DNA from: Verrucomicrobiales bacterium | GTDB lineage: Bacteria; Verrucomicrobiota; Verrucomicrobiia; Limisphaerales; J093 | Length of the DNA stretch: 64,000 nt | Direction of reading: 5' to 3' | Assembly (NCBI GenBank): GCA_015075445.1 | Contig: JABTUJ010000046.1 | Coordinates: 1 to 64,000 of the forward strand | Shown here: piece after piece, positions 7,158 to 14,931 of the stretch | Layout: the number at the start of each line of letters is the position of its first letter | Numbering within the stretch: position 1 is the stretch's first letter | Position numbers and translations under genes: made by a program | The notes under the pieces: generated by a model | The model's input: only the letters and a program-made list of their open reading frames with translations | What the model was told of the DNA's origin: nothing | Databases searched by the model: none

Positions 7158-8834
7158 ATGAGCCGGACGCGTCAGCTCGTCACCGTTGCCGCGTGTCTGG
7201 CGACGTTCGCGTGGCTGCTGGCGCCCGAGCTTCGGGCCAGTCCGGCGGTGCTCTGGCCCAGCGTGCTGGCGGTGGGGCTGGTGTTCGTCACCCGGGACCT
7301 GTACCTCGCCCTCGGCCTGGGGGCGTTCAGCGGCGCGCTGCTCCTCGCCGGGGGAAACCCGTGGACCGCCTTCCAGGCCTTGTGGCGCGACCACCTCCTG
7401 CCCGCGCTCAGCGACCGGTGGAACCTGAGCGTGCTCGTGTTCACCCTGATGATGGGCGGGTTCGTCGAGGTGCTGCACCGCAACGGCGGGATGGCCGCGC
7501 TCTCGCAGCGTTTCCTGGGGCGCTCGCAGAGCCCGCGGCGGGCGGGACTGGGGGCCTTCTTCCTGGGCTGGCTGGTGTTCTTTGACGGCCTGGCCAGCTC
7601 GATGCTGGTGGGGAAGACGCTCCGGCCGATGGCCGATCGCGCAGGCCTGTCACGTGAGAAACTGGCTTTCATCGTGGACTCAACGTCATCGCCCATCGCG
7701 GGCCTGGCGCTCCTCTCCACTTGGGTGGCGTACGAGATGTCCGTGATCCGGCAGGGTCTCGAGAACACGGGGGACCCCGCCCTGGCGGTCGCGGTGTCGC
7801 CCTTTTCCTGGCTGGTGCTGAGCCTGCCGTTCCGGTTCTACAACTGGTTCATGCTCTGGCTCGTCTTCCTGGTGGCCTGGGGGCTGCGCGACTGGGGTCC
7901 CATGCTCGAGGCGGAGCGACGCGCGCGCACAAGGCAACGGGAGGAGCTGCACACGCCTCGCGTGGAAGGCGCAGGGCCCGGTGCCGCCCGTGCCTGGGTG
8001 CCGTTGGCGGTGTTGGTGGCGGGGGTGTTTGGCGGCTTGTATGTCGACGGAGGTGGGCTCGCGGAACCGCTGAGTTTTGCGGGGTTGGTTCGAGCGCTGG
8101 GCAAGGCGGACGCCGCGTCGGTGTTTGTCCTGGCCACCGCCATGGCCACGCTCGTGGCGTTGGGGCTGAGTCTGGGGCGACGCGGCGCGGCTGGCCGCCG
8201 GCCGGACGACAGGGGTACGCAGGCGTTTCTGCACGGGATGCAGCAGATGTTCCTTCCCGCGTTGATCCTGGTGTGTGCCTGGATGCTCAACAGCGTGCTC
8301 AAGGAACTGGGAACCGCGCGTTACCTGGTGACGCTGCTGGGCGACCGGTTGCCGGCGGCCTGGCTCCCGGCGCTGGTGTTTCTGCTGGCCGCGGTTGTCT
8401 CGTTCAGCACCGGCACCTCGTGGGGCACCATGGCGGTGCTCATTCCGCTGACGGTGCCCCTGGCGGTCGAGTTGACCGGCTTTGGGGCGGGCGCGCCCGT
8501 CAGCCCGGTGCTGGCCGCCACCGTGGGGGCCGTGCTCGCGGGCGCCGTGTTCGGCGACCACTGCTCGCCGCTGAGTGATACGACGATTGTCTCGGCCTTG
8601 AGCAGTGAGTGCGACGTGCTGGCGCATGTGCGGACCCAATTGCCTTACGCGCTGGCGGCGGCGGCCGCGGCGACGCTGCTCGGCTATCTGCCGGCCGGTT
8701 ATGGCGTGGCCCCGGGATGGTTGCTCGCCGCCGGGGCCCTCGCGTGCTGGTTGCTGGTGCGGTACGGCGGGAAACGCGTGCCGGCGGTGAGCCGCCGCCC
8801 TACCGGATCTTCTGATCGGGCAGTTCCTGTTTGA
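7158..8834 (+). CDS. NhaC-family Na+/H+ antiporter
   Basis: This 558-residue protein has many hydrophobic segments and NhaC-family signatures: FFDGLASSMLVGKTLRPMADRAGLSREKLAFIVDSTSSPI (given in two parts, around residues 135-180) and the late GDHCSPLSDTTIVSALSS. It should exchange cytoplasmic sodium for external protons (or the reverse, or malate/lactate in some relatives) across the inner membrane. The ATG at 7158 follows an AGGGGGG ribosome-binding site and is preferred to an upstream in-frame GTG/ATG. Its 3' end overlaps the convergent sulfatase gene by 35 bases, leaving no room for a terminator between them. Confidence 0.88.
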   Translation: MSRTRQLVTVAACLATFAWLLAPELRASPAVLWPSVLAVGLVFVTRDLYLALGLGAFSGALLLAGGNPWTAFQALWRDHLLPALSDRWNLSVLVFTLMMGGFVEVLHRNGGMAALSQRFLGRSQSPRRAGLGAFFLGWLVFFDGLASSMLVGKTLRPMADRAGLSREKLAFIVDSTSSPIAGLALLSTWVAYEMSVIRQGLENTGDPALAVAVSPFSWLVLSLPFRFYNWFMLWLVFLVAWGLRDWGPMLEAERRARTRQREELHTPRVEGAGPGAARAWVPLAVLVAGVFGGLYVDGGGLAEPLSFAGLVRALGKADAASVFVLATAMATLVALGLSLGRRGAAGRRPDDRGTQAFLHGMQQMFLPALILVCAWMLNSVLKELGTARYLVTLLGDRLPAAWLPALVFLLAAVVSFSTGTSWGTMAVLIPLTVPLAVELTGFGAGAPVSPVLAATVGAVLAGAVFGDHCSPLSDTTIVSALSSECDVLAHVRTQLPYALAAAAAATLLGYLPAGYGVAPGWLLAAGALACWLLVRYGGKRVPAVSRRPTGSSDRAVPV

Positions 8835-9612
8835 TGCCGGCGTCAAGGGGCATCGGGTCGTGGTCCGGATCCAGACCGACCTCCTTCATCGCGTTCACCA
8901 GCTCCGCCTGCATCTGTTTCACCACCGAGGCGTACTTCGGGCGGGCGATGAGATTGTAGCGTTCCTCGGGATCGAACTCGATGTTGTACAGCTCGGCCAT
9001 GTGCCGGTCCGGTCCCCCATCGCCGTGGGGCGAGCGGGTGTACTTCCACGTCTCCGTCCGGACACTCCGGACGTTGGGGGTGTAGGGGAACTGCGCTTCG
9101 CAGTTGTAGTAGCCCGGCACGACCTCGCGTCGCTGCCCGTGGAAGTTGAACTCGGTGTCGAAGTACTTGCCCTGGCCCTTGTGCGTGACGAACCAGTCGA
9201 AGCCCGGACGCGGCTCGTCGTTGTCCTCGCCCATGTGCCACTTGCCGATGTACGCGGTGGCGTAGCCGCGGGCCTGCAGGACCAGCGGGAAGCTCTGCAG
9301 CCGGGTCGGGTACTCCGTGAAGTTGTTCACCACCCCGTGCGCGTGGGCGTAGAGGCCGCTGAGAATGCTCGCGCGGCTGGGCGAACAGAGGGACGTCGTG
9401 CAGAACGCGTTCTTGAAGTAGACCCCCTCCTGGCCGAGCCGGTCCAGGTGCGGCGTCTTGAGGTGGCGGTGGCCCGCCAGGCCGAGGGCGTCCCACCGCT
9501 GGTCGTCGGTCAGGATGAAGAGCACGTTCGGAGGCCGGCTCGCAGCACGAGCGGCAGCGACAAAGTGGTGTGCGGCGACGCACAGAAGCAGTAGGGCCAG
9601 GAGCGGTTGCAT
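8800..9612 (-). CDS. Sulfatase with an internal in-frame deletion (mini-sulfatase or pseudogene)
   Basis: At 270 residues this is little more than half the usual length of a type I sulfatase. The signal peptide (1-23), the metal aspartates (LTDDQ, Asp36-37), the formylglycine site CSPSR (76-80) and GKWHMG (123-128) are all present. After VVPGYY (about 169) the sequence jumps directly to QFPYTPNVRSVRTETWKY, which belongs near the C-terminus of the family. About 200 residues, including the second half of the catalytic site with the later Asp/His/Lys ligands, are missing. The reading frame is kept across the joint. It is probably inactive as a sulfatase, or a misassembly. The start is ATG 9610-9612. 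Confidence 0.8.
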   Translation of the reverse strand: MQPLLALLLLCVAAHHFVAAARAASRPPNVLFILTDDQRWDALGLAGHRHLKTPHLDRLGQEGVYFKNAFCTTSLCSPSRASILSGLYAHAHGVVNNFTEYPTRLQSFPLVLQARGYATAYIGKWHMGEDNDEPRPGFDWFVTHKGQGKYFDTEFNFHGQRREVVPGYYNCEAQFPYTPNVRSVRTETWKYTRSPHGDGGPDRHMAELYNIEFDPEERYNLIARPKYASVVKQMQAELVNAMKEVGLDPDHDPMPLDAGIKQELPDQKIR

Positions 9613-9802: not shown

Positions 9803-9816
9803 TTGACACACATCAA
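9803..9816 (+). promoter_or_regulatory. FNR/CRP-superfamily-like operator
   Basis: TTGACACACATCAA differs at one position from the FNR/DNR-type palindrome TTGAT-N4-ATCAA. It is centred about 150 bases upstream of the tetraheme cytochrome start in a long leader without genes. Its placement before an anaerobic-type electron transfer operon supports control by oxygen, nitric oxide or a related signal. The first six bases are also a perfect sigma-70 -35 hexamer (TTGACA), with TATCGC 16 bases downstream. The site could therefore be a plain promoter. Confidence 0.55.
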
Positions 9817-9961: not shown

Positions 9962-10609
9962 ATGAGTTTCCTGCGGTCTTTCTGGGTGCCGCTGGCCTTG
10001 CTGGCCGGCGCCTTGGTGCTGGTGCTTGATCCCGTGCCGTTCGTGAGTCCGGTGGCGCGTCCCGTGCCGGTGCCGGACTGGGCCACGAACACGAATCCCG
10101 TACGACAACCCAAGCTGGTTCCGCACTACGTGGTGGCGGGGTTCACGTACCAGTGCAGCGACTGTCACCGCATCATTCCCTCGCCGCGCGAGACGCAGCG
10201 GCGCCTCACCCAGCACACCGACATCGAGCTCAACCACGGGCTCAACACGCGCTGCTTCAACTGCCATCACCCGCACAACCGCGACGCCTTTGTCGACGAC
10301 TTCGGCGAGGAAATCCCCTGGAACCAGCCGCAGCAGTTGTGCGGCAAGTGCCACGGACCGGTTTACCGGGACTGGGAGCATGGCTCGCACGGGCGGTTGA
10401 ACGGTTACTGGGATGCCGGGCGCGGCCCGCAGCTCAAACGCCGTTGCATCGAGTGTCATGACCCGCACCATCCCCCGTTCGGCTCCATGACACCCGCCCC
10501 GGGTCCGGACACCCTGCGGATGGGCCCGTCCTTGCCTCCCGGCCACGAGGGCCGCCGGGACCCGCTGCGCATCTACTCGGCGCAGGCCCCGCCGACTGCT
10601 TCGCACTGA
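9962..10609 (+). CDS. Membrane-anchored tetraheme c-type cytochrome
   Basis: This 215-residue protein has one N-terminal hydrophobic helix (SFLRSFWVPLALLAGALVL) that serves as an uncleaved anchor or signal. Four CXXCH haem sites follow: CSDCH, CFNCH, CGKCH and CIECH. Extra histidines between them (QHTDIELNH, HHPHN, EHGSHG) can act as distal ligands. It should face the periplasm and pass electrons between the quinol-oxidising NrfD/FeS module and the octaheme cytochrome encoded three genes later. It is not an obvious NapC/NrfH member. The ATG at 9962 follows a strong GGAGGGGGG ribosome-binding site. The next gene starts 3 bases after its stop. Confidence 0.88.
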   Translation: MSFLRSFWVPLALLAGALVLVLDPVPFVSPVARPVPVPDWATNTNPVRQPKLVPHYVVAGFTYQCSDCHRIIPSPRETQRRLTQHTDIELNHGLNTRCFNCHHPHNRDAFVDDFGEEIPWNQPQQLCGKCHGPVYRDWEHGSHGRLNGYWDAGRGPQLKRRCIECHDPHHPPFGSMTPAPGPDTLRMGPSLPPGHEGRRDPLRIYSAQAPPTASH

Positions 10610-10612
10610 GCC

Positions 10613-11638
10613 ATGGCCCCTCCCGAGAATCCACCCGGTGCCGGCGGCGACGTTGCCCGTCCGGCGGAGGTATCGCGCCGCGGCTTTCTCACCCAGGGCG
10701 CGGCGGCCGCGGCCGGCCTGGCCGCCCTGGCGGCAGCGCTTTCGCCCCTGCGACACCTGAAAGAGGGCGACCTGCCCACCGCCGAGGAGTTTCTCCAGAA
10801 GCACTACAAGGAGATGACGGCCGCGGAGAAGGCGCGTGTGCTCGGCCGCATCCAGGAGCAGGTCAAGAAGCGCTACGGCGTCACGTCGCAGGTGAACGAT
10901 CCGCCCCCGCTGGACGGCGTCGAGTTCGTCTACGGCCTGAACATCAGCCGCTGCATCGGCTGCCGGAAGTGTGTCCACGCCTGTGTCGCCGAGAACAACC
11001 CGTCGCGGGCGCCCGAGATCCAGTACATCCGCGTGCTGGAGATGGAGAAGGGCAGCATCGATGTGGAGACGGCGAACCACCGTTACGACGCCAGCCAGGT
11101 GCCGCGGCCGGACAAGTGGTACATGCCGGTGCAGTGCCACCAGTGCGCCAACCCGCCCTGCGTCAAGGTGTGCCCGGTCGAGGCGACCTGGCAGGAGCCG
11201 GACGGCATCACGGTCATCGACTACGATTGGTGCATCGGCTGCCGGTACTGCGAGGCGGCGTGTCCCTACTGGGCCCGGCGGTTCAACTTCACCGAGCCGC
11301 AGATCGAGCCGGACCAGCTCAATCCCGACCTCGCTTATCTCTCGAACCGTCCCCGCCAGAAGGGCGTGATGGAGAAGTGCACGTTCTGCCTGCACCGCAC
11401 GCGGGTGGGCAAGCTGCCGGCCTGTCTGGAGGTGTGCCCGACGGGGTCCCGCAAGTTCGGCAACGTGCTCGATCCCACCAGCGAGGTGCACTACATCCTC
11501 AAGCACAAGCGCGTGTTCATCCTCAAAGCCGACGTCGGCACGCTGCCCCGGTTCTTCTACTACTTCGATGAGCGTGGCAGCCGGTACCACGACCCGCTCG
11601 AGGGCGCGGGCCAGGCCACCCACGGGGAGGGCGCATGA
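10613..11638 (+). CDS. Tat-exported ferredoxin-like protein with four [4Fe-4S] clusters (NrfC/HybA/DsrO type)
   Basis: This 341-residue protein carries a twin-arginine signal (SRRGFLTQG then an Ala/Leu-rich stretch, about residues 21-45). Cysteine groups are arranged as in NrfC/HybA/PhsB subunits: CIGCRKCVHAC, CHQCANPPCVKVCP, CIGCRYCEAACP and CTFCLHRTRVGKLPACLEVCP, enough for four cubane clusters. Such subunits dock on an NrfD-type membrane protein and carry electrons between the quinone site and a periplasmic partner. The stop overlaps the NrfD start by 4 bases (ATGA), so the two are translationally coupled. Confidence 0.92.
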   Translation: MAPPENPPGAGGDVARPAEVSRRGFLTQGAAAAAGLAALAAALSPLRHLKEGDLPTAEEFLQKHYKEMTAAEKARVLGRIQEQVKKRYGVTSQVNDPPPLDGVEFVYGLNISRCIGCRKCVHACVAENNPSRAPEIQYIRVLEMEKGSIDVETANHRYDASQVPRPDKWYMPVQCHQCANPPCVKVCPVEATWQEPDGITVIDYDWCIGCRYCEAACPYWARRFNFTEPQIEPDQLNPDLAYLSNRPRQKGVMEKCTFCLHRTRVGKLPACLEVCPTGSRKFGNVLDPTSEVHYILKHKRVFILKADVGTLPRFFYYFDERGSRYHDPLEGAGQATHGEGA

Positions 11639-12891
11639 AGCGGTACTTCGCGTTTCTTTGGGACTGTTTCCGGCTGAGCTTCGTCGGGGACTGGCGGTAT
11701 CACCTCTGGATGACGGCGCTGACGCTGGTGGCGTTGACCGGGCTGTACGCCTACTGCCAGCAGTTGGTGCACGGCCTGGTGACGACGGGCATGACCGACC
11801 AGGTGTCCTGGGGGATGTACATCGCCAACTTCACCTACCTGGTCGGGCTCGCCGCCGCCGCCGCCATGCTGGTGATCCCGGTGTATGTGTACCGGAATTT
11901 GCACCTGCACGACGTGGTGATTTTCGGGGAACTGCTCGCGGTGTCGGTGATCCTGATGTGCCTGTTGTTCGTGACGGTGGATCTGGGCCGGCCGGATCGG
12001 TTCCACCATCTGCTCCTGCGGTTCAACTTCCCGATGTCGATGCTGACGTGGGACGTGATTGCGCTGAACGGGTATCTGCTGCTCAACCTCCACATCTGCG
12101 GCTACCTGATCTACTGCGCGTATTGCGGGCGGCGGCCGGCGAAGAAGTTCTACATCCCGTTCGTGTTCGTGGCCATCGCCTGGGCGATCAGCATCCACAC
12201 CGTCACGGCGTTCCTATACGTCGGGCTCGGCGGCCGGCCGTTCTGGAACTCGGCGATCATCGCGCCGCGGTTCCTGGCCAGCGCGTTTGCGGCGGGGCCG
12301 GCATTCATCATCCTCACGCTGCAGGTGGTGCGGCGCTTCACCCGGCACCAGGTCAGCGACGACGCACTGTTCACGCTGCGGCGCATTGTCCAGGTGGCGC
12401 TGCTGATCAACCTGTTCCTGCTGCTCTGCGAGCTCTTTACCGAATTCTACGCCGACACCCGGCACGTCGCGTCCGCGCAGTACCTCTTTCTGGGCTTGCA
12501 CGGGCGGAATGCCCTGGTGCCCTGGATCTGGACGGCGATCGCGATGAACGTGGTGGCGACGACCCTGTTCATGCTACCGGCCTCGCGGGCGCTGCCCACG
12601 CTCAACGTGGCCTGCGTGCTGGCCATCGTCGGGATCTGGATCGAGAAGGGGATGGGCTTGATCGTGCCCGCCTTCATCCCCACGCCGCTCGGGGAACTGG
12701 TCGAGTACGCTCCCACGTTGCACGAGACGCTGATTTGCTTCGGCATCTGGGCGTTCGGCCTGCTGGTCTACACGATCCTGGTGCGGGTTTCCGTGCCCGT
12801 GCTCGCCGGCCAGGTCACCTATGCCCACCGTTGGGGCTCCCCCCCGCCGGCGTCCTCCGCGGCTGCCTCCCCTGCTTTCGAGAAAGGTTGA
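11635..12891 (+). CDS. NrfD/PsrC-family quinone-interacting membrane subunit
   Basis: This 418-residue protein is highly hydrophobic, with about ten possible membrane helices. It belongs to the NrfD/PsrC (polysulfide reductase C, DsrP, HybB) family, which binds menaquinol in the membrane and passes electrons to a periplasmic FeS subunit without haem. Recognisable stretches include DQVSWGMYIANFTYLVGLAAAA and the long loop SAQYLFLGLHGRNALVPW. The overlap with the FeS gene and the 4-base gap to the octaheme gene support a single complex. Confidence 0.9.
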   Translation: MKRYFAFLWDCFRLSFVGDWRYHLWMTALTLVALTGLYAYCQQLVHGLVTTGMTDQVSWGMYIANFTYLVGLAAAAAMLVIPVYVYRNLHLHDVVIFGELLAVSVILMCLLFVTVDLGRPDRFHHLLLRFNFPMSMLTWDVIALNGYLLLNLHICGYLIYCAYCGRRPAKKFYIPFVFVAIAWAISIHTVTAFLYVGLGGRPFWNSAIIAPRFLASAFAAGPAFIILTLQVVRRFTRHQVSDDALFTLRRIVQVALLINLFLLLCELFTEFYADTRHVASAQYLFLGLHGRNALVPWIWTAIAMNVVATTLFMLPASRALPTLNVACVLAIVGIWIEKGMGLIVPAFIPTPLGELVEYAPTLHETLICFGIWAFGLLVYTILVRVSVPVLAGQVTYAHRWGSPPPASSAAASPAFEKG

Positions 12892-12895
12892 ACCC

Positions 12896-14389
12896 ATGAA
12901 CTCCACCCTTGTCACGCTCGCTTTCGGTTGCGTCGGCCTGGCCGCCGCCATCGTCTCCACCCCCCGCGCCCAGGCGCAGGCCTGGGGCCTGCCCGCGATG
13001 TCCAAGGAAACCCAGGCCTGCCTGGAGTGCCATCGTCGCGACAACGCCGGTGTCTACCAGCAGTGGGGCGCCAGCAAGCATTACCGCGCCAACGTGGGGT
13101 GCTTCGAGTGCCACATGGCGGCCGAGGGGGATCCCGACGCCTTCCTGCACGAAGGCCAGCGGATTGCCACGATCGTCTCGCCGAAGGACTGCGCGCGGTG
13201 CCACAGCCGGGAGGCGGCCGAGTTCGCCGGGTCCCATCATTCGAAGGGCGCCCGGATCCTCGGGTCGTTGGACAACACGCTCGCGGAGGTCGTCGAGGGT
13301 AATCGCGGGATGAAGACGCCCGGTTTTCCGGGCGGCGTCAGCGCCGCGGCCGTCAACGGGTGCTGGCAGTGCCACGGCAGCGAGGTGAAGGTGCTGGCGA
13401 ACGGAAAGCTGGACCCCGCCACCTGGCCCAATACCGGCATCGGCCGCATCAACCCCGACGGCTCAGAGGGGTCCTGCTCGGCCTGCCACAGCCGCCACTC
13501 CTTCTCCGCCGAACAGGCCCGCCACCCGGACAACTGCGGCAAGTGCCACATGGGGCCGGACCATCCCCAGTTGGAGATCTACTACGAATCCAAACACGGC
13601 ATCGCGTTCCGCGCGTTCAAGGACAAGCTGAACATGGATTCCGCCAAGTGGGTCGTGGGCGAGGACTACAACCTGGCGCCCACCTGCGCCACCTGCCACA
13701 TGAGCGCCACCCCGGCCCGGGCGGCAACCAAGGACCGCGCCGCGATTCCGGCGATGCCGGTGAGCCACGACGTCGGGATGCGCATCAGTTGGAACAACCG
13801 GCCCGAGCTCTCGATCCGCCCGGAGGTGAGCGACAAGAAGATGGGATTGCCCGGGGGCGACGTGAACTGGGAGGTCCGCCGCCAGAACATGAAGCACGTC
13901 TGTCTGAACTGCCACGAGCAGCAATGGGTGGACAACTTCTACGTGCAGTACGACAGCCTGATCGACCTCTACCACCAGAAGTTCGCCGAGCCCGGCCTCG
14001 AACTCTATCGCCTGGCCAAACCGCTCATGGGCCCCGTGCAGTTCGCCAACAAGCTCGACTGGACCTGGTACGAGCTCTGGCACCACGAGGGCCGTCGCGC
14101 CCGCCACGGGGCCTCGATGATGGGCCCGGATTACACGCACTGGCACGGCACCTATGAGGTGGCCAAACATTTCTACGTCAAGATGGTCCCGGAGCTCGAG
14201 GAACTCATCGTCAAAGGCCGCACGTCCGGCGATGCCACCAAGATTGCCGCTGCCGAAGCGCTGGCGAAACGGCTCGAGGAGGTCCTCAGCACGGCCAACC
14301 ACAGTTGGTACGTCAACAAGATGGACCCCGCCGAGAAGGCGGAACGCGAGCAGCGCCAGCAGGAGTTCCAGAAGCGCTACGCCAAGTAG
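12896..14389 (+). CDS. HAO-like octaheme cytochrome c
   Basis: This 497-residue periplasmic protein has a signal peptide ending near residue 28 (AQA). Eight CXXCH sites start at residues 42, 69, 99, 156, 194, 214, 264 and 336. The sequence GSCSACHSRHSFS followed by CGKCHMGPDHPQLEIYYESKHG, and later SHDVGMRISWNNRPELSIRPE with CLNCHEQQWVDNF, are hallmarks of the hydroxylamine oxidoreductase family. Haem 4 (CWQCHGS) is the position of the catalytic P460 haem in true HAO. Whether the cross-linking tyrosine exists cannot be judged without an alignment. Members linked to quinol modules, as here, usually reduce nitrite, hydroxylamine or NO rather than oxidise hydroxylamine. That direction is inference. 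Confidence 0.9.
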   Translation: MNSTLVTLAFGCVGLAAAIVSTPRAQAQAWGLPAMSKETQACLECHRRDNAGVYQQWGASKHYRANVGCFECHMAAEGDPDAFLHEGQRIATIVSPKDCARCHSREAAEFAGSHHSKGARILGSLDNTLAEVVEGNRGMKTPGFPGGVSAAAVNGCWQCHGSEVKVLANGKLDPATWPNTGIGRINPDGSEGSCSACHSRHSFSAEQARHPDNCGKCHMGPDHPQLEIYYESKHGIAFRAFKDKLNMDSAKWVVGEDYNLAPTCATCHMSATPARAATKDRAAIPAMPVSHDVGMRISWNNRPELSIRPEVSDKKMGLPGGDVNWEVRRQNMKHVCLNCHEQQWVDNFYVQYDSLIDLYHQKFAEPGLELYRLAKPLMGPVQFANKLDWTWYELWHHEGRRARHGASMMGPDYTHWHGTYEVAKHFYVKMVPELEELIVKGRTSGDATKIAAAEALAKRLEEVLSTANHSWYVNKMDPAEKAEREQRQQEFQKRYAK

Positions 14390-14402
14390 TCCCGGATCGC
14401 GC

Positions 14403-14483
14403 TCCGCATGAACCTGTGGTGCGGGCTTCCAGCCTGCACCCCCCGTGGTTCATGGCCCCTGAGCAGGTCCCAAAGGAACAGGT
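14403..14483. repeat. Dispersed repeat of about 80 bp, copy B
   Basis: This matches the repeat at 135-213 in the same orientation: ATGAACCTGTGGTGCGGGC, then GTGGTTCATGG, GAGCAGG and GGAACAGG in the same order. A partial third occurrence starts at 14757. The element directly follows the octaheme cytochrome stop codon. Confidence 0.7.
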
Positions 14484-14931
14484 GGCTTTCCATGAACCCG
14501 GGTACCGAGCGCGCGCCCACGCCGGCGGCGTGCCAGGCGGTAGCCGGGGGTCGAGCGAGTTCGGGAGCGAGACCCCCGGAGGCGGTCGGGCATGGGCGAG
14601 CGCATCCCGGAGGGATGCCAGACGCGGTGAGCCAGGCTCTCTGGCACCGCCTCCGCGGTGCGTTGGGCTTGGCCCGCAGGGCCCGGAGGTTGCCGCCGGG
14701 CGGCGACCTCCGGCTACCGTCTGGGACGCCTCCGGCGTTAGCTGCGACACCCCTCCCATGAACCTGTGGGCGAAGGCCCGCCGGGGCCATGGGTCGGCCG
14801 GCGCCGCGCCCCACCCGCTTCGTGGTCATGCGGCGCCGTGGCGGCGCCCCAAGCCCCCCGGCGCACGCATTTGCGCTCATTAGGAAACACCCCTATTGCC
14901 CGGAACCCAGCTTCTGGCACAATCGGGGCCG
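14484..14931. repeat. Gene-free region of palindromic filler
   Basis: No gene is supported here. Two strong hairpins stand out: GCATCCC-GGA-GGGATGC (14602-14618), and 13-base arms at 14683-14695 and 14701-14713 (CCGGAGGTTGCCG against CGGCGACCTCCGG) with a 5-base loop. These are the kinds of palindromes that recur between genes in Verrucomicrobia and Planctomycetes genomes. One of them may also stop transcription after the octaheme operon. Confidence 0.5.

Follow-up and report, generated by a model that had tools for sequence, protein, structure and literature searches.

A four-gene module pairing an HAO-type octahaem cytochrome with a DsrOP-like membrane part, a candidate quinol-dependent nitrite reductase in Verrucomicrobiota

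Four adjacent genes on the forward strand of a verrucomicrobial contig (positions 9962-14389 of the window, that is, of the whole 64,000-nucleotide stretch analysed) encode a tetrahaem cytochrome, an iron-sulfur protein, an NrfD-family membrane protein and an octahaem cytochrome, and from their sequences and genomic context it is reasonably likely that they make up one quinol-dependent respiratory nitrite reductase. The reading is supported by the conserved gene set, an octahaem active site with the Asp-His pair and no cross-link Tyr, the fold of the Ignicoccus octahaem IhOCC, the linkage to NapA and an FNR-like site; counting against it, most loci have no NapA close to the octahaem, which is also often found without the module. 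That nitrite is reduced, to whatever product, seems to us quite likely. Substrate, product, order of electron transfer, complex formation and any proton translocation are all features that we infer. In the proposed scheme, the NrfD/DsrP-type subunit would oxidise menaquinol in the membrane, and electrons would travel via the four [4Fe-4S] clusters of its Tat-exported partner to the bis-His tetrahaem cytochrome, and from there along the haem chain of the octahaem to a five-coordinate haem 4, where nitrite would be reduced. The most likely product would be ammonium, which we rate a little short of an even prospect, with NO or hydroxylamine possible. The first-pass annotation of this DNA spoke of an under-described route, which is overstated, since a 2017 paper had already noted this gene composition beside nap and proposed that it reduces nitrite (PMC5276818). 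The present analysis adds how widely the module occurs, the DsrOP type of its membrane part, a reading of the active site, the statistics on NapA and the complementarity with NrfA.

Gene layout and electron-transfer subunits

The packing described at first pass, with overlaps or gaps of a few bases, holds on a single strand: a 3-nt gap separates the tetrahaem and iron-sulfur genes, the latter overlaps the NrfD-family gene by 4 nt (ATGA), and a 4-nt gap precedes the octahaem gene (Table 1). Chance origin of the cluster is excluded, because it recurs in many independent genomes. Its neighbours in the window are an antiporter, a sulfatase and a histidine kinase. The upstream palindrome TTGACACACATCAA has one mismatch against TTGAT-N4-ATCAA, and an FNR-like palindrome lies at equal distance upstream of the module in the sister genome G003; of 50 regions upstream of the module, 5 hold an FNR-like site with at most one mismatch, where shuffled sequences would give 0.4. 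The sulfatase (8800-9600, minus strand), which lies between the antiporter and the module, is short; its Pfam match covers only the initial 131 of the 301 positions of the sulfatase family and is followed by a C-terminal family, as if the middle were missing; there is no counterpart at the matching place in G003 (locus L035). On the 3' side of the octahaem, about 540 nt of GC-rich non-coding DNA (14400-14880) hold repeated GAACCTGTGG-like stretches.

Table 1. Features of the module and its upstream region in the window
Feature	Position	Strand	Evidence or remark
Tetrahaem c-type cytochrome, membrane-anchored, presumed electron carrier with an NrfB-like role	9962..10609	+	Four CXXCH
4x[4Fe-4S] ferredoxin-like subunit, Tat-exported, DsrO/NrfC-like	10613..11638	+	RR motif, 16 Cys, Fer4_11
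NrfD-family integral membrane subunit, putatively quinol-oxidising, DsrP type	11635..12891	+	Pfam NrfD, NCBIfam DsrP
Octahaem HAO-superfamily subunit, putatively catalytic, reductive type	12896..14389	+	Eight CXXCH, fold nearest 4QO5, Trp416, D222-H223
FNR/Crp-family-like palindrome TTGACACACATCAA, putative function	9803..9816	+	About 159 nt upstream of the module

On the whole, Pfam, NCBIfam and the HAO fold bear out the first-pass view of an HAO-family octahaem joined to a quinol-linked iron-sulfur/NrfD part. The families named for that part were right (Pfam NrfD, 1.4e-37 and 130.5 bits; Pfam Fer4_11, 3.3e-20), but by model scores it is nearer DsrOP than NrfC/NrfD. The membrane protein reaches 415.5 bits against NCBIfam DsrP and passes the cut-off of 350, as against 27.5 bits for NCBIfam NrfD (cut-off 347.6); for the iron-sulfur protein the best NCBIfam model is DsrO with 165.8 bits, under its cut-off of 200, as against 99.5 bits for NrfC (cut-off 377.6). 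The solved relatives of the membrane protein are ActC/NrfD of alternative complex III, and the identities of the iron-sulfur and NrfD proteins correlate across loci (rho 0.84). The tetrahaem matches Pfam Cytochrome_C7/Paired_CXXCH, with no Pfam match to NapC/NirT (Cytochrom_NNT), and has an N-terminal helix at residues 3-22. Beyond the haem-binding motifs, four more His (H85, H92, H143 and H169) are invariant across 39 homologues, so that its haems are probably all bis-His. A search with its predicted structure (pLDDT 72, pTM 0.53) found no useful fold match.

Active site and phylogeny of the octahaem

The octahaem has neither CXXCK nor CX15CH, and matches Pfam Multi-haem_cyto (3e-19). Its haem 4 motif is CWQCH, that is, His-ligated, and seven further His are invariant in the alignment besides the active-site His223, which would suit seven haems with bis-His ligation and an eighth that is open. 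The Asp-His pair of the active site is retained. The cross-link Tyr and the haem-4 ligand had been singled out for inspection at first pass. Trp416, flanked by His415 and His417, aligns with the cross-link Tyr467 of Nitrosomonas europaea HAO, the alignment there being good to about one residue and the Tyr467 position having been checked by counting in the N. europaea chain. The same position is Trp in HAOr, Phe in IhOCC and Tyr in HAO, mHAO and HOX, and the cross-link Tyr is found in no aligned member of the window's octahaem clade. Tyr413 was rejected as a conserved cross-link residue, being Phe, Trp or Ile in close homologues. Both the PDB sequence search and the fold comparison give 4QO5 (IhOCC) as best solved relative, followed by HAOs; with the AlphaFold2 model (pLDDT 80, pTM 0.74, haems not included), Z is 24.5 for 4QO5, about 16-20 for HAO, HOX, HAOr and HDH, and about 8-9 for NrfA and ONR. 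OTR and MccA are missing from the PDB sequence matches, a result that is compatible with relatedness. ONR is rejected as an identity, for it needs CXXCK at the catalytic haem. On its motifs and fold we assign the octahaem to the reductive type of the HAO superfamily, and loss of the cross-link accompanies reductive catalysis in HAOr and relatives (PMC12758564, PMC12485887).

These features also bear on sulfur respiration, which the first-pass annotation had offered beside nitrogen. A reductase of sulfite, tetrathionate or polysulfide, analogous to MccACD with a DsrOP-like membrane part, is most improbable: the MccA-type CX15CH is absent, fold and sequence are of HAO type, and the linkage is to NapA. 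In its favour, the paper by Slobodkina et al. gives sulfur compounds as another option (PMC5276818) and the membrane subunits are DsrP/DsrO-like, this ancestry being the only thing found to point to sulfite or other sulfur use.

The tree of 112 octahaems, a quick one with midpoint rooting and long-branch warnings on IhOCC and L014, answers in part the placement asked for at first pass, as it was run without Campylobacterota epsilon-Hao, OTR and MccA, and NapC/NirT-linked octahaems (L049-L051) stand in for epsilon-Hao. It splits 13 rows (NeHAO, methanotroph HAO/mHAO, HOX and HAOr) from 99 rows including the window octahaem, with SH-aLRT 99. The window's side comprises IhOCC, the NapC/NirT-linked octahaems and a large group from Planctomycetota, Verrucomicrobiota, Gammaproteobacteria, Nitrospirota and others; the Thiomargarita and Thioglobus octahaems lie within the window's clade. 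An oxidative HAO (hydroxylamine dehydrogenase) is rejected on the Trp and on this separate branching. A module that works oxidatively, passing electrons from hydroxylamine or hydrazine to quinone, is likewise very unlikely, although it would agree with membership of the HAO superfamily, with the ability of NrfD-type complexes to work both ways and with the oxidation of hydroxylamine and hydrazine in vitro by the Beggiatoaceae orange octahaem (PMC6449678). The mark of oxidative HAOs, the cross-link Tyr, is missing in the whole clade, the octahaem stands apart from NeHAO, mHAO and HOX, and the linked NapA belongs to a reductive pathway. In addition, the window octahaem falls in a six-member verrucomicrobial group nested among Planctomycetota, and the module octahaem of the congener G002 (locus L040) belongs to another verrucomicrobial subclade, which points to replacement of the octahaem by horizontal transfer.

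Distribution and nitrogen-gene context

The gene order is not unique to this contig, a doubt raised at first pass. Within the class, the four genes are found in 10 further genomes, and an eleventh is cut by a contig end; close orthologues are rare across 388 genomes drawn from the phylum. The scan of public genomes gave 571 related stretches, and among the best 80 of them 41 loci have all four genes, 6 have part and 33 have the octahaem alone within the flanks. The full-module loci among these 80 span at least eight phyla; 33 of the 41 are ordered as in the window, another two would match it but for ORF starts called too far upstream, in five the octahaem comes first and one is divergent. Many sulfur oxidisers and Nitrospirota among the best 80 have the octahaem without the module, and no homologue is found in viral contigs. 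A Candidatus Scalindua (anammox) genome (L086) holds the full module besides its many other HAO paralogues.

NapA is encoded within about 8 kb of the octahaem in 18 of the best 80 of the 571 loci, where a density of one NapA per 4 Mb would predict about 0.3, and 11 of the 18 have the full module. The NapA-linked loci come from Verrucomicrobiota, Planctomycetota, Acidobacteriota, Myxococcota, Cloacimonadota, Calditrichota and Gammaproteobacteria. Ten of the 18 neighbours were checked by NCBIfam, and NapA is the best model in all ten; six of them reach the curated cut-off and a seventh is borderline. For example in L044, genes for NapA, a NapB-like cytochrome, the tetrahaem, the iron-sulfur protein, NrfD and the octahaem are all co-directional. 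Several Verrucomicrobiota also encode, beside the octahaem or the nap genes, a protein about 170-200 aa long (L043:6424-6990, L044:9459-10010, L045:9382-9987, L069:12759-13274), for whose L044 copy neither Pfam nor NCBIfam gives a match.

Among 12 octahaem-bearing verrucomicrobial genomes, NrfA is absent from 10, only the window's genome and its sister G003 having it; NirK occurs in one, NarG in one, and NosZ-like proteins in two (G002 and G040). Nitrite is therefore the best-supported of the substrates first suggested (nitrite, hydroxylamine or NO), because of the NapA linkage and because most carriers are without NrfA. It is unlikely that the physiological product of nitrite reduction is NO or hydroxylamine, in an HAOr- or reverse-HURM-like manner with another enzyme reducing the nitrogen further. 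HAOr, which also lacks the cross-link, converts nitrite to NO (PMC12485887), and the two NosZ-like proteins fit partial denitrification; however, nap-linked, NrfA-less thermophile carriers form ammonium (PMC5276818), and a NosZ match is absent in most of the 12 genomes.

The role of the module in the window's own organism is the least certain point. Its genome encodes NrfA, and searches of the 87%-complete assembly find no NapA, NarG or NirK; an open frame of 1477 aa in the same genome (G000:C5:8730-10565) has weak molybdopterin and NarG-like matches. The presence of NrfA and the lack of a detected nitrate reductase would suit detoxification or an electron sink (for NO, hydroxylamine or peroxide) in place of respiration, which we nevertheless consider improbable, for a three-subunit quinol-oxidising module would be costly for that alone, and it is co-inherited, as the correlated iron-sulfur and NrfD identities indicate.

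Returning to respiratory nitrite reduction, we tentatively suggest as a possible generalisation a distinct and widespread quinol:nitrite oxidoreductase family, in which nitrite ammonification by an HAO-type octahaem would conserve energy through a DsrP-type, potentially ion-translocating subunit, and on which many NrfA-less bacteria in the Planctomycetota-Verrucomicrobiota group and beyond may chiefly rely for reducing nitrite. Surveys of nitrite reduction target NrfA, NirK and NirS, and the module is found in many NrfA-less genomes. The octahaem is often labelled HAO, suggesting ammonia oxidation; if it is a respiratory nitrite reductase, annotation as hydroxylamine oxidase misleads, and nitrogen retention by the carrier bacteria is being missed.

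Comparison with known systems

The four-gene composition was described by Slobodkina et al. in 2017 beside nap in two NrfA-less thermophiles, Thermosulfurimonas dismutans and Dissulfuribacter thermophilus, which ammonify nitrate, and nitrite reduction was hypothesised (PMC5276818). Their cluster likewise has a HaoA-like multihaem cytochrome, an NrfD-family protein, a periplasmic 4Fe-4S protein and a further cytochrome c, but it belongs to Thermodesulfobacteria and lies next to napMADGH, whereas the window is verrucomicrobial with no nap neighbour; the two are likened by description. The Beggiatoaceae orange octahaem BOGUAY_0691 reduces nitrite, is encoded near napAB and has described relatives in Thiomargarita and SUP05 (PMC6449678); it and TDIS_0606 are placed in the octahaem family by the papers' descriptions and not by sequences. 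Counting against the nitrite reading, Candidatus Thioglobus autotrophicus, which carries a homologue, did not grow with nitrite as sole acceptor (PMC6449678). Phycisphaerae octahaems, one of them suggested for Poriferisphaera corsica, have been proposed as nitrite reductases (PMC11266412), work on Oslofjord MAGs reports other NrfD clusters (PMC10732223), and a 2021 review of NrfD-family complexes does not give an HAO-type partner among its examples (PMC8076601).

Among complexes with an NrfD-family subunit, NrfABCD of the E. coli type resembles the module in its quinol oxidase, 4x[4Fe-4S] subunit, multihaem carrier and catalytic cytochrome, but has a pentahaem NrfA with CXXCK and a pentahaem NrfB in place of an HAO-type octahaem, a tetrahaem and a DsrP-type membrane part; membership is rejected, with CXXCK absent and NrfC and NrfD below their curated cut-offs. 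MccACD sulfite reductase also combines an octahaem with iron-sulfur and NrfD-family subunits, and differs in the CX15CH motif, in the HAO fold of the window octahaem and in the module's NapA rather than sulfur context. With DsrMKJOP the likeness is the membrane protein that passes the DsrP cut-off; as a whole this complex is rejected, the module having four haems against the trihaem DsrJ, a DsrO score below cut-off and neighbours other than DsrMK.

Among HAO-family systems, epsilon-Hao with its NapC/NirT partner (CycX/CycB; reverse HURM) is similarly a reductive octahaem fed from the quinone pool, but its partner is a NapC/NirT tetrahaem, in contrast to the C7-like tetrahaem and DsrOP-like iron-sulfur and NrfD proteins of the window; the more distant octahaems L049-L051 of the same phylum adjoin a NapC/NirT gene, which the window module is without. 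Kuenenia HAOr (6H5L) shares the missing cross-link Tyr and lies on another tree branch. Kuste4574 of complex R/b-3 is also an HAO-like octahaem without the cross-link Tyr in a quinol-oxidising membrane complex, there built on Rieske/cytochrome b. Finally, IhOCC (4QO5), the closest in solved fold and sequence, is archaeal and has Asp-Val where the window octahaem has Asp-His.
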